NCBI RefSeq assembly: GCF_900454025.1
Contig: NZ_UGQM01000001.1
Location: 4,092,001-4,156,000, forward strand
DNA length: 64,000 nt
Source: Mycolicibacterium gilvum
GTDB lineage: Bacteria; Actinomycetota; Actinomycetes; Mycobacteriales; Mycobacteriaceae
Direction of reading: 5' to 3'
Positions 6,828 through 52,450 of this stretch are shown in pieces; positions within the stretch are counted from its first letter, which is position 1, and each line of letters starts with the position of its first letter. The position numbers and the translations under genes were made by a program. The notes beneath the pieces were generated by a model. That model ran no database searches and was not told the DNA's origin. It saw nothing but the letters and a program-made list of their open reading frames with translations.

Positions 6828-7490
6828 TCAGGCCGCGCCCTCACCCAGATATCTGACCCAGGCCGGATCGAGTTCCTTGACGCTGGAGAGCAGGCGCCAG
6901 TGCTGACCCTTCGGCGGCAACGGGGTGGTGTGCAGAGACCAGCCGAGCTCGCTGAGCAGTTTGTCGGCCTTGCGGTGGTTGCACGCCGAGCAGGCCGCGA
7001 CGCAGTTCTCCCAGGTGTGGGCGCCGCCGCGGCTGCGCGGGATGACGTGGTCGACGGTGTCGGCCTTCGATCCGCAGTACGCGCAGCGGAACCTGTCGCG
7101 ATGCATCAGGGCTGCCCTCGTCATCGGGATCCGCGCCCGGTAGGGCACCCGCACGAAGGTGCGCAGCCGGATCACGGTCGGCACCCGGATGGACCGCGTC
7201 GCCGAGTGGATGACCGGCCCTACCGGGTCGTCGTGCACGACGTCGGCCTTCCCGCACATCAGCATGATCACCGCGCGTCGCAGCGGCAGCGCCGTGAGCG
7301 GTTCGTAGGTGGAGTTCAGCAGCAACACCCGGCGGCGCCCCCACACCGAGGACTCCGCAACGACCGGGTGGGCATCGACAGTGGGAGCGACGCTGTGCAG
7401 CGCGCGCGAGGCAGTAGGAGACGATGATCCGGGTAGGGCCACCGCGGTCCGGTGATTCCGGTGGCCGCGTCCGTTCTTGCGCTGCGCCAT
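6828..7490 (-). CDS. HNH endonuclease-domain protein, Rv2469c-like
   Basis: The 220-residue protein has an N-terminal conserved mycobacterial segment ([11 protein letters not shown], about 58-68, and [13 protein letters not shown]) and a C-terminal HNH domain: C-x2-C in RCAYCG, the HNH core [18 protein letters not shown] and C-x2-C in ACSACN. The complete D-H...N...H residues suggest an active nuclease fold. The family is widespread in actinobacteria, next to glbO, with no settled role. The ATG at 7490 has GGAGG 6 nt upstream; the in-frame extension to 7535 lacks such a signal. It is divergent from glbO across 167 bp that contain no other gene. Confidence 0.85.
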
Positions 7491-7657
7491 AGATCCTCCG
7501 TCGGACAGTCCACCACGGATTTCCTCGGATCGCACGGCAATTCTCGACGTGTTCGCTGGTCAGTCCGATGAACAACCGGTGACGGCCCCCTGATGCCGCC
7601 CGGCCGCACCCCGATGCGCGCCGAGCGCGGGACCGGCGATGGCCCACAATGGAGACG

Positions 7658-8059
7658 ATGGACGCGCACAGCAAGCAGCAGTCGTTCTATGACGCCGTCG
7701 GCGGGCACGCCACGTTCCACACCCTCGTGGCGCGGTTCTACGAACTCGTCCGCGACGACGAGATCCTTCGCCCGCTCTACCCCGAGGACGACCTCGTCGG
7801 GGCCGAGGAGCGTCTCCGGATGTTCCTCGAGCAGTACTGGGGCGGGCCGCGGACCTACTCCGATCAGCGTGGCCACCCCCGGCTGCGGATGCGTCACGCA
7901 CCGTTCCGCATCGGCTACCTGGAGCGCGACGCGTGGCTGCGGTGCATGCACACCGCGGTGGCCGAGATCGACTCCGCGACCCTCGACGACGCGCACCGCC
8001 GCGAGCTGATCACCTACCTGGAGATGGCCGCCGAGTCGATGGTCAACTCTCCGTTCTAG
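7658..8059 (+). CDS. glbO: truncated haemoglobin O
   Basis: The 133-residue group II (trHbO) 2-on-2 haemoglobin binds haem and reversibly binds oxygen, and in mycobacteria it is linked to respiration and to nitric oxide or peroxide chemistry. Family marks are visible: [10 protein letters not shown] at the N-terminus, FYELV, the block [11 protein letters not shown] with the trHbO Tyr/Trp, RHAPFRI containing the proximal-side His region, and the ending [13 protein letters not shown]. The ATG at 7658 lies 7 nt after CACAAT and is taken as a leaderless start; an ATG at 7649 would add three residues. Adjacent aglA-like genes known from M. tuberculosis are absent here. Confidence 0.93.
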
Positions 8060-8062
8060 GTC

Positions 8063-8734
8063 TCAGCGCAGCACCACCGCGGGATCGCCGCGGCGCAGGT
8101 ACACCGTGCCGAAGCGGGCGTCGACGCGAAGCCAGTTCGGCAGCGCGCGCACCCGCACCACCTCGTCGGTGTCGCCGGCCCCCCGGTCCTCGGCCGTCGG
8201 CTGCGGCAGGAAACCCATCGCCGTCAGCGTCAGCACGCACCGCATCGGGATCCCGACGGTGTCGTGTTGCGAGGCCACGGTGAGCACTTCCTGATCGAGC
8301 AGCGAGGTCGGCGGGCCGAACGCACTGGAGTGTTCCTTGGCCAGGCTCATGCCGCGCTCGGCCAGGTCGAGCACCGCGGCCGCGGGGACGTCGTCGAGGT
8401 AGACGAATCCCTTCTCCGGGGGCAGCACGCCCCGCCACGCCGAATCCATCGAGAACCCGGGGTCGACGTGTCCCGCCGACGTCGCCGCCCGCAGTCCGGC
8501 CAGCAGCACATCGGCTCCCACGGACAGGTCGGACGGGACGATTCTGCCCGCCACCACCCGGCTGGCGAGCACATCGAATCCTGTTGCCACCCAGGCGACG
8601 ATCATTCCGCCCTCGCGCTCGCGCAGCCTCACCACCGCCGCGTCGTCGAGGCGCAGCGCGCGTTCGGTGAACGTCGCGAGGTCGTCGCGGTCGGCCGCGC
8701 GCGCCGGCCAGAGGCCGCGCTCGCCGCCGCTCAT
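8063..8734 (-). CDS. conserved mycobacterial protein, Rv2474c-like
   Basis: The 223-residue protein is the third gene of the gdh-thioesterase operon and overlaps the thioesterase stop by 4 nt (ATGA). I do not recognise an enzymatic domain. The sequence is soluble, mixed alpha/beta and without a signal peptide or membrane span; conserved-looking stretches are LWPARAADRDDLATF, FVYLDDVPAAAVLDLAERG and VGIPMRCVLTLTAMGFL. Length and position match Rv2474c (217 aa by memory). Coupling to NAD-glutamate dehydrogenase suggests shared expression, not a known function. Its 3' end is 3 bp from the convergent end of glbO. Confidence 0.8.
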   Translation of the reverse strand: MSGGERGLWPARAADRDDLATFTERALRLDDAAVVRLREREGGMIVAWVATGFDVLASRVVAGRIVPSDLSVGADVLLAGLRAATSAGHVDPGFSMDSAWRGVLPPEKGFVYLDDVPAAAVLDLAERGMSLAKEHSSAFGPPTSLLDQEVLTVASQHDTVGIPMRCVLTLTAMGFLPQPTAEDRGAGDTDEVVRVRALPNWLRVDARFGTVYLRRGDPAVVLR

Positions 8735-9150
8735 CGCGTCCAGCGCTGCAGGTATTCGCGCTGAGCGACCGAGAGGCGTTGCAGCCGTTGCTCGTCGATG
8801 TGGACCGCGGCGAGTTGGGTGTCGGCGACGACCGCCGGCCTCGAGTCGGGCGCAGCCCCGACCGAGCGCACCTCGTAGCCCACCGTGAAGTCGACCGCCC
8901 GCACCCGCTTCGACCACATGGTGACCTGCAGCGGCGAATCGACCAGACGCAGCTGGGCCTTGTAGGAGATGTTGACCTCGGCGATCAGCAACCCGATCGT
9001 GGTGATCGTCTCCCCGAAAGGCTCACGCAGGAACGGGATCCGGGCCTCCTCGAGAATCGTGACCATCGTGGCGTGGTTGATGTGCTGATACATGTCGATG
9101 TCCGACCACCGCACATGCACCGGCGCCGTGAAGCCACGCTGCTCGGTCAT
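8731..9150 (-). CDS. hotdog-fold acyl-CoA thioesterase
   Basis: The 139-residue protein has the 4-hydroxybenzoyl-CoA thioesterase/YbgC-type single hotdog fold. The signature [18 protein letters not shown] (about 13-30) carries the catalytic Asp (in SDID) and the HINHA turn. It should hydrolyse acyl-CoA thioesters in the cytosol; chain length cannot be read from sequence. The ATG at 9150 overlaps the gdh stop codon (ATGA), and its own stop overlaps the next gene, so all three proteins are translationally coupled. It corresponds to Rv2475c (138 aa by memory). Confidence 0.9.
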
Positions 9151-46135: not shown

Positions 46136-46208
<73 letters not shown>

Positions 46209-46216
46209 CCACACAG

Positions 46217-46240
46217 AAACCCTGCTCAGGCGGGGTTTTT
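46217..46240. terminator. terminator after tRNA-Lys, overlapping convergent gene end
   Basis: Arms 46217-46225 and 46230-46238 pair (one G-U) around TCAG, followed by T-run to 46240. The loop contains the stop codon of the convergent WS/DGAT gene. Confidence 0.8.
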
Positions 46241-47650
46241 GTCGTTTGCCGCCTCGGCATTCGGGCGGGCCGGAACGCCGGAGCCCGGCCCGCGTCCCAC
46301 ACCGCAGAGATCGGCCAGGCACTGCACGCCGTTCTCGATCCCGCGGGCGAGCGTGTCCACATCGGGTGCGGTGTCGTAGTCGGCCGTGATGCCGAAGGAG
46401 AATCGACGCGCGTAGCTGAGCATCGCGATTCCGGTCCGCAGGTGAAGCGCAATCTGCGGGATGGGCAGGATCTCCACCACCTTGCGACCCAGCACTCGCT
46501 GCCGGCCGCGGGGACCGGGGACGTTGGTCGCCAGCGCGGTCACCGACTTCTGCGGCAGTCGGGTGAGAAAGCGGATCGTCCACGCCGACAGTGCGAATGG
46601 GATGTTGCCGGCTGCGGCGAAGACGGCGGTGCCACCCTCCCGCTGGCCGCTGCCCTTGGCGCGGAGCAGCCGCCGGTGGACGATGTCGAGTTGCCTGACC
46701 GGATCGGGTTCGTCCACCGGCAGCATCGCCGACACCCGGTTGTCGGTGACGTCGAAGTCGCTTGCCGAGCGCATCGACACCGGCACCAGCGTGCGCAGCG
46801 TGCGGGGTCCGGGTGATTCGCCGCGGGCGAGCAACATGTTCCGGTAGCCGCTGGTGATGGCCGCCAATGCCACGTCGTTGAGCGTCACGCCGAAGTGCCG
46901 GCTCACGTCTTTCATGACGCCGAGGTCCACCGTCGCGGCGCTGAAGCGACGCATCCCGGTGACGGGCCCGTTCAGCGAGGACTCCTGGCCGGGAGCGAGC
47001 ACGCGAGCTGTCAGCTCTGCGGCCCCCACGATGGCGTGCTCGGCAGCGCTACCGACGGTCAGGGTCGCCCGCCACGCACCGCTCATCCAGGCCACCGGGT
47101 TGAGTCGCGGCCGCAACAGGCCCACGATCGACGAGCCCGATTCCCGGGCGGCGCGGATATCGGCGGCGAACGTCTCACCTGCGCCGTCGTCGCTCAGCTT
47201 CGCCAGCATCTGCGCGGTCGCGATGCCGTCTGCGATGCAGTGGTGGATCTTGATCAGGGTCGCCCACCGTCCGGCGGCGAGCCCCTCGATGATCCAGCAC
47301 TCCCACAGCGGTCTGTCACGGTCGAGTCGACGTTCCATGATGGTCGCGATCATCGCGAACAGTTCGGCGTCGGCACCCGGCGCCGGTACCGCCACGCGAT
47401 GCAGGTGATGGCCGATGTCGAAATACGGGTCATCCACCCACTCGGGAGCGGCGAGATCGAAGGGCCGCATGCGCACGATCTGTGTGCAGCGCGGGATTCT
47501 GTGCGCGCGCTCGGCGAAGACCTCGATGAGCTCGTGGTAATCCGGTTGCGGCCCCTCGATGATCGACACGGCGCCCACAGCGAGGCTGACGTGCGGGTCG
47601 GAGTCCTCGGCCTGCAGAAAGCTGGCGTCGAGCGTGGTCAGATGCTGCAT
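46226..47650 (-). CDS. WS/DGAT-type acyltransferase
   Basis: The 474-residue protein has the full family pattern: LTTLDASFLQAED at the N-terminus, HHCIADG (HHxxxDG, about 150-156) with both His residues, PxxxxN-type region LNDVALAAITSGYR, and a C-terminal VTALATNVPGP. It should acylate an alcohol or diacylglycerol with acyl-CoA. It belongs to a block that I do not recall in M. tuberculosis at this locus, and is divergent from a ketosynthase pair across 150 bp. A DosR-like palindrome in that gap could control it, as DosR controls tgs1. ATG 47650. Confidence 0.88.
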   Translation of the reverse strand: MQHLTTLDASFLQAEDSDPHVSLAVGAVSIIEGPQPDYHELIEVFAERAHRIPRCTQIVRMRPFDLAAPEWVDDPYFDIGHHLHRVAVPAPGADAELFAMIATIMERRLDRDRPLWECWIIEGLAAGRWATLIKIHHCIADGIATAQMLAKLSDDGAGETFAADIRAARESGSSIVGLLRPRLNPVAWMSGAWRATLTVGSAAEHAIVGAAELTARVLAPGQESSLNGPVTGMRRFSAATVDLGVMKDVSRHFGVTLNDVALAAITSGYRNMLLARGESPGPRTLRTLVPVSMRSASDFDVTDNRVSAMLPVDEPDPVRQLDIVHRRLLRAKGSGQREGGTAVFAAAGNIPFALSAWTIRFLTRLPQKSVTALATNVPGPRGRQRVLGRKVVEILPIPQIALHLRTGIAMLSYARRFSFGITADYDTAPDVDTLARGIENGVQCLADLCGVGRGPGSGVPARPNAEAANDKNPA

Positions 47651-47736
47651 CTCATGACACTGCGCCTCCGTCCGGCCGTCGCGGCAGGGTCACAAGTCCT
47701 CACCCTCGGGATTGGGCCGTCAGAGCAGAGCCTGGT

Positions 47737-47752: not shown

Positions 47753-47800
47753 GTTGATCGCCGACGTCCTGCGCTCACCATCGGGTGAGGAGGCATGGCA

Positions 47801-48901
47801 GTGGACAGGCATTGGCTGGTGATGGAGGGCGCCGGGCCGCGCGCCCGGTATCGCTCCCGGTTGGCCGGGGCGGGGCGGCACCTGCCCCCGACACATCTGA
47901 GCACCCGTGACCTGATGGCGAGCACGCGGCACAACACACACATCGACCTGGAGCGGCTGATCGGCATCCGCGACCGACGGGTGTCCACCGGTGACGAGGA
48001 CTCCTGCAGTCTGGCCACGGCGGCGGCCGTGGACTGCCTCGACAGAGCCGGGCAGGACGCCGCGGGGTTGGACGTGGTGATCAACTGCAGCATCACCAAG
48101 TTCCGTGACGGCCTCACCCAGTGGATGGAACCGACGATGAGCGCCGCGGTGGCGCGCGCGATAGGCGCCGAGCACGCCATGACCTTCGACCTGTCCAACG
48201 CATGCGCCGGGATGCTGACCGGCGCCACGGTTCTCAACAACTGGATCCGGCAGGGCACCGTGCAGAGGGGGCTGGTGGTCAGCGGGGAGTACATCTCCCA
48301 ACTCGGCCAGAACGCGGCCCGCCACATCCGCAGCATCATGAGCAAGGAGTTGGCGTGCCTGACGTTGGGCGACGCGGGGGCCGCGCTGTTGTTCGAACGG
48401 GCTCCCGCCGACTCGGCGGCCGGTATCAGCCTGGCGGGATTCACCACGATCGCCGACCACAGCAGGCTCTGCCTGGCCTACCCCAAGGGCGACGACCCCG
48501 GGGCCCGGATGTTCACCGATTCCCGGGGCATCCAGCGGGCGGCGATCGCCGCCACTCCTTACCTGCTGCACGAGGTGCTGGACGCGGCGGGCATTTCGAT
48601 CGGCGACATCGATCACGTGATCACCCATCAGACATCCGCGCGCGCGATCCGCAAAGGCATGGCCGCGCTCACCGAGTCCTTCGGTGGCGGTCCCCGACAC
48701 GATGCGGTGATCACCGTCGATCGCTACGGCAACACGGCGTCGACGACCCACACCGTGGCGCTGGTCGAAGAGCTCGAAGCCGGACGGATCCGTGCCGGCG
48801 AGACCATCGCGCTGATCGCGTTGGCGTCCGGTCTGGAGATCGGCGTCGTGCTGCTCACCCTCGATGAGGAGTTGGTGAACCGCTATGGGCACCGTGATTG
48901 A
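47801..48901 (+). CDS. FabH-like ketosynthase III, catalytic subunit
   Basis: The 366-residue thiolase-fold protein has a complete KASIII triad: Cys135 (SNACAGML), His276 (ITHQTS) and Asn311 (RYGNTAS). It would take an acyl group from CoA onto Cys and condense or transfer it to an acceptor. Unlike housekeeping FabH it has a long N-terminal region (RYRSRLAGAGRHLPPTHL at about 16-33). The GTG at 47801 is chosen because AGGAGG lies 7 nt upstream; the ATG at 47795 is only 1 nt from that element. The next gene, a second ketosynthase homologue, starts 17 nt before its stop. Pathway unknown; a heterodimer with that protein is likely. Confidence 0.8.
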   Translation: MDRHWLVMEGAGPRARYRSRLAGAGRHLPPTHLSTRDLMASTRHNTHIDLERLIGIRDRRVSTGDEDSCSLATAAAVDCLDRAGQDAAGLDVVINCSITKFRDGLTQWMEPTMSAAVARAIGAEHAMTFDLSNACAGMLTGATVLNNWIRQGTVQRGLVVSGEYISQLGQNAARHIRSIMSKELACLTLGDAGAALLFERAPADSAAGISLAGFTTIADHSRLCLAYPKGDDPGARMFTDSRGIQRAAIAATPYLLHEVLDAAGISIGDIDHVITHQTSARAIRKGMAALTESFGGGPRHDAVITVDRYGNTASTTHTVALVEELEAGRIRAGETIALIALASGLEIGVVLLTLDEELVNRYGHRD

Positions 48902-49769
48902 GCGCATCGACCTCGCCCGGGGCGGCTGGCGTTCCCGCCACAGCGCGCTGCACCTGGCCGTCGCCGCGGCCAGGACGTGCCTGCAGCAGGCCAGACGAGA
49001 CGCCGATGACGTCGATCTGTTGATCAACGCGGGAATCTACCGTGACCGCAACCTGGCCGAACCCGCACTCGCGGCGCTCATCCAGCAGGACGTCGGGGCG
49101 AATCCCGAAAACCCGCACAGCGAGGGTCACGGCACGTTCTCGTTCGATGTGGCCAACGGAGCGTGCGGGGTTCTCACCGCCCTACAGATCGTCGACGGCT
49201 TTCTGCGCTCCCGCACCATCGCGTGCGCGCTGGTCGTGGCGAGCGACGCGGACCCGGGTCGCCGACACCGCGAGTCGTTTCCGTTCGCTCCCGCCGGGGC
49301 GGCTCTGCTGTGCAAATGGACCGACGACGTCGGCGGTCTCGGCCCCGTGTCCTGGTTGAACACCACCGATGGCGGCGAAACATTCTGTGCGACAGTCGGA
49401 CTCGAGGATTCACGCAACGTGCTTCGGTTCCAGGTCTCGGCCGGGCTGGACGAACACTTCGCCACCGCGGGAGCGGAGGCGGCGGGTCGATGCCTGGAGG
49501 CGTCCGGTGTAGCGCTCTCTGCAGTCGACGTCATCGTCGCGGCCCCCGCTCGGGCAGGCTTCCGGGCAGCACTGGCAGCGAAGCTGGGGACTGCTGCGGA
49601 GCGCATCACCGTCGCCGACGACGAGCGGACGCACACGGCCGCGCTGCCGACCGCGCTGCACCGCGTGTCCGACGAGATCCCCCCGGGTGGGCGCATCCTC
49701 CTGGTCGCCGTCGGGGCTGGAATCACCGCAGGGGCGGCGCTGTACCGAAAGCCTTTGCCCGCAACATAA
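48885..49769 (+). CDS. degenerate FabH-like ketosynthase, probable partner subunit
   Basis: The 294-residue thiolase-fold protein aligns with its upstream neighbour. It keeps the nucleophile region with Cys94 (NGACGVLTAL), but the catalytic His is Ala219 (VIVAAPAR in place of ITHQTS) and the Asn is Arg248 (DERTHTA in place of RYGNTAS). Decarboxylative condensation by this subunit alone is therefore unlikely; it may hold an acyl group or act structurally, as in paired KASIII enzymes such as PqsB/PqsC. It is shorter than KASIII at the N-terminus. The 17-nt overlap with the first gene implies equal production. It converges on the S15-like gene 17 bp away. Confidence 0.75.
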   Translation: MGTVIERIDLARGGWRSRHSALHLAVAAARTCLQQARRDADDVDLLINAGIYRDRNLAEPALAALIQQDVGANPENPHSEGHGTFSFDVANGACGVLTALQIVDGFLRSRTIACALVVASDADPGRRHRESFPFAPAGAALLCKWTDDVGGLGPVSWLNTTDGGETFCATVGLEDSRNVLRFQVSAGLDEHFATAGAEAAGRCLEASGVALSAVDVIVAAPARAGFRAALAAKLGTAAERITVADDERTHTAALPTALHRVSDEIPPGGRILLVAVGAGITAGAALYRKPLPAT

Positions 49770-49786: not shown

Positions 49787-52450
49787 CTACGCGGCGGCCG
49801 ACCCCACCGCCACTCCCGCCTGCGCGGCGCCCGCCCCGGCCCCGACGGCCACCGTCGGCAGGGACAGCGACACACTCTCGACGTCGATGAAGCCGACCTG
49901 GAAGAGATCGAGATACGGGGTCGCAAACCCGGCCAGTTGCAGCGTGAGCGTTCCGCCGGGCACAGCCGTGTAGGCGATCTGTTCCAGATCGATGGTCACG
50001 GTCTGGGTCCGGCCGTTGAGGGTGACCGGGATCGGTGTCACCAGGTTGCCGAGGACAAGCCCGGTGGCGTCGTCGACCAACTGCCCGTAGATGTGGGTGG
50101 CGGTGCCCAGCCCCGAGTAGGTCAGCGTGATATCCGGTGCCCCGACGATCTGGGTGCCCGCGGGTGCGGCGATCTCCAGGTTCAGCGCCAGCGACGCCTC
50201 CGAGGCCAGCGCCGGCGACACGATCAACGGGGTCGGCGACTGGGTCTGCGGGCCCGAACCGCCCAGAATCGGAATGATGGGCAGGAACCCGCCGTCGCTG
50301 TCGGTGACGATGGGATCTCCGTAGAAGTCGGGTTCTGTCGGAAGCAGGTCCGACGAGTGGTAGGCACCGGTCTGGTCGAACCATTCGAACCGGGGACCGG
50401 TCGGAATCAACTCGTTGCCGCGCACGTACCGGTCGAGCCAGTCCAGCGTCGTGTTCACCAGCAGCGGCGTCTGGATCGGGTTCAGCGGATCCAGGCACAC
50501 CCCGTGCCCGCCGCACGCCCAGATCATCTCCACCGGAACGCCGTTCGCGTCGAGCAGCATCGCGTTGGCGACTGCCTGGGCAAGCGTGAACAGGCCGTCG
50601 GCCGTGCCCTGGATCAGCAGGGTCGGCGCCGTGATCGAACTGACCAGCACCGTCGGGCCGCTGCTTTCCAGGATGGCCTCCTGGGTCTCGGTGATGAAAC
50701 CGAGGAGGTCCCCGAGGATGATCGCCGGATAGATCTGGGAGTTGATCCTTGCCCCCGCCTCCAGCAGGTCCAGTCCCAGTAACGTCGCCCATCCGGTCTT
50801 GAACGCCTTGGTCGGATAGAGCGCCCGGGTCAGCGAGTTCCATGCGATCACCGGGACGATGGCATCCACACGGTCGTCGATCCCCGCCGTCACCAGTTGG
50901 ATTCCGCCGCCGTAGGAACCGCCGACCATCCCCATCGTCGGATCCCCGGGTGCGTCCAACTCCGTTTCCGGACGGCCCGCGACCCAGCTGATGATCGCCT
51001 GGACGTCGCGCCCCTCGAAGAAGGGGTTGTCGAGTTGCAGGATGCCGCCGGAGGCGAACTCGCCCCGAGGATCCCAGGTCACGACGTTGTAGCCCCCGTC
51101 GCGCAGCGGCACCAGGCCGGGGACCAGGTCGAAGACCGTCGTCTCGGAGGTCGGATCGATGTCGCCGGCGCTGCCCAGTCCGGGACCGTTGAGCACCGTC
51201 GGCGCGGTCTCGCCGAACTGCAGGCCGCTCGCCGGGAAGAAGTTGGTGCTGATCTGCGTCCCGTCGAACGACGTCACCATCGTGGTGAATGCGACGGGGG
51301 CGCCGACGGGAACCAGCTCGTCGACGTCGACGCCGATCGTCGTGATGACGCGGTAGCCGATGATCGGCTGCAGAAGCGCGCCGAGGACCGGCACCTGCTG
51401 CAGGCCGATCACGAGGGGCTGCACGAAGTCGCCGATGATCGGGATCTGCTCGAGCAGTGCCATCAGCACGCTCGTCTGGCTGACCATCACGGTGAAGTTC
51501 TCGACGCCACGGGAGTCGACCACGGACAGATCCGGCAGGAACGAGAACGTGCCGTCGTCGTTCAGCGTGATCTTGCCGCCCTGATCGGGGCCGTCGAGGA
51601 GTGTGTAGATCAGCGGGCGGCCGTTGGTGTCGGTCGCCCCGACGGAGCCGTAGATCACGCCGTCGAGGAAATCTAGCGTCGGGTCGACCGAGATCGGCCC
51701 GCCGGCGACGAGCGCCTCGCGCCGCGCGGCGGCGGCCATCGCCCACGACAACGGCGACCCCGAGGGCAGCCCGTCCGGGCTGTATCCGGCGAACGGGCTG
51801 AAGAGGTTCTCGACCAGGGTCAGCAGGGGGCTCGCGACGGACGCCGACGCCGTCACCGCCGGCGTCGGCGCGGCCCCGGTGCGCCCCGCGACCGCGGCCG
51901 GGCTGGACAGCCATGTGATCGCCTGCTCCTGCCGCCCCGGCGACGTCGCCGGGGCTGCCGCGCCGGCGTCGTCCGGCGTCTCCGCGGGAGCGTCATCGTC
52001 GGATGTCGGCGAGGTCGCAGAGGCGGGCGAGGTCACCTGCGTCGACGCATCGCCATCGCTCGTGTCAGGCTTTCTCGAACTCGTCGCGGGACGGTCGTCG
52101 GATTCCGCGTCGCCGGCGTCCTCGTTCGCCGCGGGCAGTCCGATGTCACCGTCGGCGTCCTCGCGGTCGGGTTCAGCGGCGCCGTCGGGGTCAGCGGCGT
52201 CGTCATCGCTGTCCGGGGCGTCGTCAGCGGGGATGTCCGAATCCCGGGTATCGGTGTCCGCTGCGGTCGTCGGCTCCGATGTGTCTGCAGCACCTGACGT
52301 CTCCGACGCCTGCGACACGGACGCTCTGGTGTCGGACCCGTCTGCGGCGGGTTTGGCCGAGGCGACGGCGTTGCCCCCGAGGACGGCGGTGCCGACTCCG
52401 AAGGCCACCGCGAGCCCGCCGACGCGACCGATGACACTTGCAGCGTTCAT
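49787..52450 (-). CDS. secreted S15/CocE-type serine hydrolase with acidic linker
   Basis: The 887-residue protein has a signal peptide (about 1-31, hydrophobic GGLAVAFGVGTAVLGG then ASA), a long Asp/Ala/Ser/Thr-rich acidic linker (about 32-175) and a beta module (about 265-310, PLIYTLLDG...GKITLNDDGTFSFLPD) like cadherin/VCBS repeats. An X-prolyl dipeptidyl peptidase/CocE-type hydrolase follows: nucleophile GGSYGGG, acid GTADGLF, His CGGHGVC. A C-terminal jelly-roll-like domain (about 690-860) completes the S15 architecture. It is exported, and its substrate could be peptides or esters. ATG 52450 has GGGGGAA close upstream. Linker and beta module resemble those of the C39-like secreted protein at 24.5-26.2 kb. 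Confidence 0.8.
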   Translation of the reverse strand: MNAASVIGRVGGLAVAFGVGTAVLGGNAVASAKPAADGSDTRASVSQASETSGAADTSEPTTAADTDTRDSDIPADDAPDSDDDAADPDGAAEPDREDADGDIGLPAANEDAGDAESDDRPATSSRKPDTSDGDASTQVTSPASATSPTSDDDAPAETPDDAGAAAPATSPGRQEQAITWLSSPAAVAGRTGAAPTPAVTASASVASPLLTLVENLFSPFAGYSPDGLPSGSPLSWAMAAAARREALVAGGPISVDPTLDFLDGVIYGSVGATDTNGRPLIYTLLDGPDQGGKITLNDDGTFSFLPDLSVVDSRGVENFTVMVSQTSVLMALLEQIPIIGDFVQPLVIGLQQVPVLGALLQPIIGYRVITTIGVDVDELVPVGAPVAFTTMVTSFDGTQISTNFFPASGLQFGETAPTVLNGPGLGSAGDIDPTSETTVFDLVPGLVPLRDGGYNVVTWDPRGEFASGGILQLDNPFFEGRDVQAIISWVAGRPETELDAPGDPTMGMVGGSYGGGIQLVTAGIDDRVDAIVPVIAWNSLTRALYPTKAFKTGWATLLGLDLLEAGARINSQIYPAIILGDLLGFITETQEAILESSGPTVLVSSITAPTLLIQGTADGLFTLAQAVANAMLLDANGVPVEMIWACGGHGVCLDPLNPIQTPLLVNTTLDWLDRYVRGNELIPTGPRFEWFDQTGAYHSSDLLPTEPDFYGDPIVTDSDGGFLPIIPILGGSGPQTQSPTPLIVSPALASEASLALNLEIAAPAGTQIVGAPDITLTYSGLGTATHIYGQLVDDATGLVLGNLVTPIPVTLNGRTQTVTIDLEQIAYTAVPGGTLTLQLAGFATPYLDLFQVGFIDVESVSLSLPTVAVGAGAGAAQAGVAVGSAAA

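Follow-up and report, generated by a model that had tools for sequence, protein, structure and literature searches.

An overlapping pair of KAS-III-group genes in Mycolicibacterium gilvum that very probably encodes the two halves of one acyl-condensing enzyme

The LstA/LstB pair of Streptomyces toxytricini, known from lipstatin, is a KAS-III heterodimer that condenses two acyl-CoAs to an alpha-branched beta-keto acid, as set out in those parts of the two sources that are drawn on here (PMC12141560; PMC7064751). The same parts of the first source report that C128 and H271 of LstA are required, that N305A LstA yields no soluble complex and that E60 of LstB is required, with LstB counterparts described as widespread and always clustered with LstA genes, and natural fusion chimeras mentioned beside the LstAB work (PMC12141560). 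OleA is a homodimer that carries out the head-to-head condensation of acyl-CoAs, and a Mycobacterium obuense protein with 26% identity to the Xanthomonas enzyme is, in the portion of the text used, reported to be OleA-active (PMC7064751); this protein may belong to the same family as the genes described below. A further FabH-like condensing enzyme that is built of two different subunits is PqsBC of alkylquinolone synthesis.

A pair that can be compared with these systems lies in the window, which is the whole stretch of 64,000 nucleotides of M. gilvum DNA that was analysed. The preliminary description had seen two genes of the KAS-III group sharing 17 nt, with a divergent WS/DGAT gene beside them, and all of this is borne out, the genes being placed as follows:

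46226..47650, minus strand: WS/DGAT acyltransferase gene, 474 aa, divergent from A (TIGR02946 382 bits, cut-off 310)
47795..48901, plus strand: gene A, catalytic KAS-III subunit (LstA-like), 368 aa from ATG
48885..49769, plus strand: gene B, pseudo-KAS-III subunit (LstB-like), 294 aa, ATG start
48885..48901, plus strand: overlap of the A and B reading frames, 17 nt

Both A and B fall into the KAS-III group with Pfam and NCBIfam, with both KAS-III Pfam domains above cut-off in A and the C-terminal one in B, but neither protein scores above the cut-off of any NCBIfam model. The FabH model TIGR00747 scores 119 bits for A and 58 bits for B (cut-off 292), and the OleA equivalog PRK09258/NF006720 scores 135 and 52 bits (cut-off 285). 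B had been said to align along its length, which is true of its end, as the KAS-III models run through to it; they begin at about residue 12-22, thus B is without roughly the first 45-50 residues of the KAS-III fold, and it has no catalytic triad. No ACP, malonyltransferase or reductase was seen among the scanned genes adjoining the pair, as had been stated before. The gene convergent with B (49787-52450, minus strand) encodes a protein of 887 aa, with an S15/CocE-type hydrolase domain and an N-terminal part that is acidic and of low complexity. The adjacency and overlap of A and B is more than chance, given that B lies directly 3' of A with overlapping coding ends in all 41 stand-alone mycobacterial loci (the window and 40 relatives).

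The residues that are expected to matter for catalysis were surveyed in 141 loci (the window, L033-L038 and L045-L178, some contigs being repeated, e.g. L038/L124 and L033/L165), with counts for B out of 140 since the L168 locus ends ahead of B and the sequence in its B row is that of A:

48128-48130, plus strand: A Glu112, kept in 141/141 loci
48203-48205, plus strand: A Cys137, kept in 141/141 loci
48626-48628, plus strand: A His278, kept in 141/141 loci
48731-48733, plus strand: A Asn313, kept in 141/141 loci
49059-49061, plus strand: B Glu59, kept in 140/140 B sequences

The triad of A had been numbered Cys135-His276-Asn311, which is right when counted from the GTG at 47801 (366 aa) and becomes Cys137-His278-Asn313 when counted from the ATG. 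B is without the Cys-His-Asn triad, the nucleophile Cys being found in none of the 140 B sequences and the KAS-III His motif missing from the commonest B variants. In an alignment with the OleA-type chain 3fk5, Glu112 of A falls on residue 97, which stands 26 residues ahead of the 3fk5 Cys, the spacing of E117 ahead of C143 in OleA (residue names from PDB titles), and Glu is missing at this position in four other KAS-III chains that were aligned. Glu59 of B may be the equivalent of LstB E60, the two being matched by place and number only, without alignment to the named LstB.

It is apparent from these features that the pair resembles LstA/LstB in having adjacent KAS-III-like genes, one for a subunit with Cys, His and Asn and the other for a partner with a Glu (E60 in LstB, Glu59 in B), a likeness by description and without alignment, but unlike LstA/LstB loci the pair in the window is without adjoining OleC/OleD-type genes and has relatives in DosR islands. 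The match of A to OleA-type chains has an E of 6e-20, and A shares with them the Cys, His, Asn and E117-type Glu; unlike OleA there are two different subunits, one of them without the triad, and A stays below the NF006720 cut-off. PqsBC shares the FabH-like character and the two different subunits, but has another acceptor chemistry, whereas A has the full triad, and the Ole-type Glu and the Ole context set the A/B family apart. The nearest known relative is LstAB/OleA rather than PqsBC, which had been offered as the example of a paired KAS-III. As LstAB has already been described as a KAS-III heterodimer in the part of the source used (PMC12141560), the A/B kind of enzyme is known and the suggestion of a new condensing system is not supported; what is new is a separate mycobacterial lineage of the LstAB-type pair and a new gene context.

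Homologous pairs are also found at lst/nlt-like loci of Nocardia and Rhodococcus relatives, where nlt is what we take to be the name for such loci. Here the pair is near OleC and OleD homologues (L085, L087, L088, L090, L091, L094), has 33-37% (A) and 33-36% (B) identity with the pair in the window and lies outside its clade. Together with L133, L160 and L176 these make up the nine of 141 loci with both OleC and OleD homologues near the pair, and L175 has an OleD homologue only. With NCBIfam the OleC proteins of L133 and L160 reach 700 and 710 bits and pass the cut-off of 478; the OleD proteins of these two loci, at 416 and 417 bits, stay below the 580 required. OleB-, OleC- and OleD-like genes are all present in the L133 and L160 clusters, and the Bacteroidota loci with a fused pair (L133, L142, L148, L156, L160) have in common, by eye, an acyl-ligase-like ORF (LVDIL... 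start), a P450-like ORF (PPGPK... start) and others. L036 carries a second, divergent A-B pair (7132-9071, minus strand) that is 37% and 32% identical to that of the window, with a DosR-type pair in the same genome.

In the fused A-B proteins, which stand alone or behind NRPS modules, the same two domains with the same residues form one chain, unlike the pair in the window, to which they are 30-35% (A) and 22-28% (B) identical in L033, L034, L133 and L142. A scan of the genome collection with a fused query confirmed 94 loci, and in 71 of the best 80 of these A and B are in one ORF, a share that is biased since the query itself is a fusion; the other nine are L167, L168, L171, L172, L173 and L175-L178. 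Stand-alone fusions of ~670-710 aa are found in Bacteroidota, Lentisphaerota and Gemmatimonadota, and longer fused ORFs, mostly of ~1,690-1,850 aa, in Mycolicibacter, other Mycobacteriaceae, Nocardia, Planctomycetota and Acidobacteriota. In L033 and L034, the two ORFs scanned with Pfam, the KAS pair comes after condensation, adenylation and carrier domains, and the length of the remaining long ORFs suggests an NRPS part there too; in the NRPS-fused form the substrates are likely to be carrier-bound. The NRPS ORFs ending in KAS-III and pseudo-KAS-III are L034:1582-6993 and L033:3648-9059 (+), with longer ORFs among L099-L164, and an HpnA/OleD-like SDR follows directly after the NRPS-fused ORF in L034.

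The natural fusions also allow the two domains to be modelled as one chain. The AlphaFold model of the 671-aa fusion L142 has a pLDDT of 90.5 and a pTM of 0.93 (34 sequences), and a pTM of this size across two domains implies a confident mutual placement of A and B, a predicted placement that is judged from the fused-chain pTM and not from interface distances. Modelled alone with AF2, B gives a pLDDT of 81.1 and a pTM of 0.85 (31 sequences), with five uneven models (54.5-81.1), and has the KAS-III fold, with PqsD and FabH as best PDB matches and OleA chains from rank 13. B was searched by means of this model of its own, as nearly all rows from Foldseek and VIA-align with the fused model concern the first domain and tell little of the second. 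The loop 53-60 that carries Glu59 has a pLDDT below 50 in B alone and a block average of 86 in the L142 fusion, which fits a loop that would need its partner, in models that also differ in alignment and species. The earlier proposal of a heterodimer with one catalytic subunit is thus well supported by the invariant triad of A, the lost triad and invariant Glu of B, the natural fusions and the confident fusion model.

Of the 148 genomes of the genus, 51 carry a homologue of B at 58% identity or more (three partial) and 97 are without the pair; 40 of the 51 loci were retrieved with 15-20 kb each, giving 41 loci with the window. At wider ranges the pair is found in 27 of 397 genomes of the order at E 1e-15, with fused forms included and 20 of the 27 in the same genus, and in 10 of 396 genomes of the phylum at E 1e-12. 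Ten stand-alone mycobacterial-type pairs form one clade in a quick tree of 42 loci (SH-aLRT 100), apart from both the OleC/OleD-linked pairs and the fusions, and the nearest group is two archaeal pairs that join at only 87. No OleC or OleD homologue was found near the pair in any of the 41 mycobacterial loci at the thresholds used, and a beta-lactone cluster at the locus in the window was rejected as OleC and OleD are missing there.

The wider context, which was not visible to the preliminary description, is that of DosR dormancy gene islands, which surround the pair in many relatives. The families that recur around it, clustered with a codon-position filter against shadow ORFs, are USP, DosS (PDB matches DevS and DosT), DosR (DevR 3c3w, 377 bits), nitroreductase, Hsp20 and PPDK, with a phosphoribosyltransferase/erythromycin-esterase protein, a NiFe hydrogenase and a trehalose-phosphatase/GH65 protein as further recurring neighbours. 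Among the matches listed, the pair is within 20 kb of a dosR in at least 23 of the 51 genomes, with 0.43 expected for random places, and within 50 kb in at least 30, with 1.07 expected, although as the genomes are related the tail probabilities for this linkage overstate the case. The nearest dosR among the matches listed is more than 300 kb away in eight of the 51, M. gilvum included, and for 11 the matches listed contain either no dosR or one on another contig. The pair in the window itself is 1.6 Mb from the nearest dosR among the matches listed and outside a Dos island.

Sites upstream of A were scored with what we take to be the core of the DosR box. A box-like site with at least 12 of 14 positions is found upstream of A in 17 of the 41 loci and inside A in none of them, and 2.5% of 1,230 shuffles have one. 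The other 24 upstream regions are without such a site; in several of these A follows a gene on the same strand and the box could lie further up. Two candidates lie upstream of A in the window:

47687..47700, minus strand: candidate DosR-box-like site AGGACTTGTGACCC, 12/14, weak, by eye placed as the sites in L054, L055 and L058
47737..47752, no strand: candidate palindrome AGGGCCGGAAGGCCCT, arms match the published OsdR consensus, weak

Taken alone the former is at chance, with six sites in the window and 5.79 expected, and the AGGGCCGGAAGGCCCT-type pattern is not above chance either, with three places in the genome against four for the reversed control, thus a DosR box in the window was rejected as evidence by itself. 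The sequence GGGACYTTNGNCCC has two sites in the M. gilvum genome, without a Dos-type gene family found nearby, and its dosR region (L200), with matches to DosR, DosS and nitroreductase and a weak one to USP, has no exact GGGACYTTNGNCCC site. GGGACCTTCGGCCC is upstream of A in L076, L078, L079 and L080, and AGGGACCTTCGGCCCC is one of the predicted OsdR sites in the published portion used (PMC5069765). For M. avium, the part of the source drawn on shows no ketosynthase among the DosR-dependent genes (PMC11876180), and the main text of a M. abscessus paper has no match for 3-oxoacyl, ketoacyl or fabH (PMC10034137). Among the papers listed in the literature search, none was seen to join DosR with OleA, LstA or a KAS-III pair, although the dormancy-regulon comparison of Gerasimova 2011 may list the gene. 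Control of the pair by DosR is proposed from the sites and gene neighbourhoods of the relatives.

The WS/DGAT gene, which is separated from A by a 145-bp gap, is a further recurring neighbour. A WS/DGAT homologue lies near the pair in 19 of the 41 loci. It is adjacent (150 bp or less) in seven loci and in three arrangements: in the window, L054, L055 and L058 it is upstream and divergent, in L047 and L056 it is downstream, and in L073 it is upstream on the same strand. The enzyme is a possible partner that may use the product of A and B. Just past the 3' end of the gene is a tRNA-Lys (CTT; 46136-46211, plus strand).

A and B are thus very probably the halves of a single enzyme for the joining of two fatty chains and, as far as can be read from sequence, most likely a two-subunit, OleA-like, non-decarboxylative acyl-condensing enzyme and not FabH. 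One acyl thioester would acylate Cys137 of A with the help of His278 and Asn313, whilst B, as a catalytically dead KAS fold, would complete the dimer and place its Glu59 in the active site of A, where this Glu would be the base that deprotonates a second acyl thioester at its alpha carbon. Head-to-head joining without decarboxylation would give an alpha-alkyl beta-keto acid, which might either lose CO2 to yield a long-chain ketone or be reduced by an enzyme encoded elsewhere, and the neighbouring WS/DGAT may esterify the product. If the mycobacterial pair belongs with the hypoxia (DosR) gene set, as is proposed, the lipid would probably be made at low oxygen, and the product may be an undescribed lipid that serves dormancy. 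What is shown is the structure of the genes, their homology, the conservation of residues, the natural fusions, the fused-chain model and the linkage to dosR, from which we infer the formation of the dimer in M. gilvum, its substrates and its product. That it holds as a whole, with an obligate LstAB-type heterodimer, a Glu59-based head-to-head condensation and a low-oxygen lipid of the DosR set, is considered probable.

Other activities can be proposed for the pair. It could initiate type II fatty acid synthesis as a divergent FabH-like enzyme, perhaps in place of a FabH that was lost, since the best PDB sequence matches of A are FabH chains and the genome has no FabH at E 1e-75. This is very improbable, as A falls far below the 292 bits needed for the FabH model and keeps an OleA-type Glu that the four other aligned KAS-III chains are without. 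FabH is above cut-off in 19 of the 51 genomes with the pair and in 31 of the 97 without it (Fisher p 0.58), and frequencies this alike give no sign of replacement, which was set aside as unsupported by these counts; FabH is above cut-off in only 50 of the 148 genus genomes. A PqsBC-like reaction, in which A would move an acyl group from acyl-CoA to a small non-acyl acceptor to give a signal-like molecule with B as scaffold, has in its favour that A has matches to PqsC chains (E 7e-12 and weaker) and that PqsBC, itself FabH-like, joins octanoyl-CoA to 2-aminobenzoylacetate, going by the part of the source used. It is possible, but fits less well with the complete triad of A, the OleA/LstB-type Glu kept in both subunits and the OleC and OleD genes adjoining homologous pairs; a pqsA-like or aromatic gene was not noticed beside the pair, and we regard this reaction as unlikely. 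About as unlikely is that the pair, as an LstAB enzyme, supplies a full beta-lactone or olefin pathway with OleC and OleD encoded elsewhere in the genome. OleC and OleD homologues do follow homologous pairs in the Nocardia/Rhodococcus family and other loci, and an SDR of the M. gilvum genome reaches 213 bits with the OleD model, but this is below the cut-off of 580, and the best OleC score is 173 bits of the 478 required, among many acyl-CoA ligase matches.

A different doubt concerns the context rather than the enzyme. The enzyme may be as described for the LstAB-type reading, with its linkage to dosR going back to a few ancestral insertions, without DosR regulation or a role in hypoxia. The relatedness of the 51 genomes and the position of the pair in the window outside a Dos island, with weak box candidates, speak for this. 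On the other side the order of neighbours differs between loci, which argues against one inherited block, the neighbour sets and orientations vary, the adjacent WS/DGAT takes up three arrangements, box-like sites are found upstream of A and not inside it, and dosR is present in 50 of the 51 genomes with the pair and 83 of the 97 others (p 0.02). We see ancestral insertion as a plausible account, though one that is somewhat doubtful. Put more boldly, an LstAB-type enzyme would have been drawn into the DosR hypoxia programme in many mycobacteria and would produce a head-to-head lipid that has not been described so far and that the neighbouring WS/DGAT would esterify. Candidates for this lipid are a long-chain ketone, the corresponding secondary alcohol and a short, mycolate-like acid with an alpha-alkyl and a beta-hydroxy group; in this full form the proposal is tentative, and rather unlikely to hold in every part.

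The interest of this well conserved LstAB-type pair lies in its possible link to hypoxia and its predicted lipid product. An anonymous "FabH-like" pair becomes a testable prediction of a two-subunit enzyme that takes two acyl thioesters, receives a Glu from a dead partner and is expressed together with the hypoxia genes. The family map, with split, fused and NRPS-fused forms, broadens a type of condensing chemistry for which few enzymes have been characterised. If recruitment into the DosR programme is true, alpha-branched beta-oxygenated lipids would be made by a further route next to that of Pks13, and the product would be a new dormancy lipid for storage or as a redox sink; finding the product would put a name to a dormancy lipid in mycobacteria other than the model pathogens.
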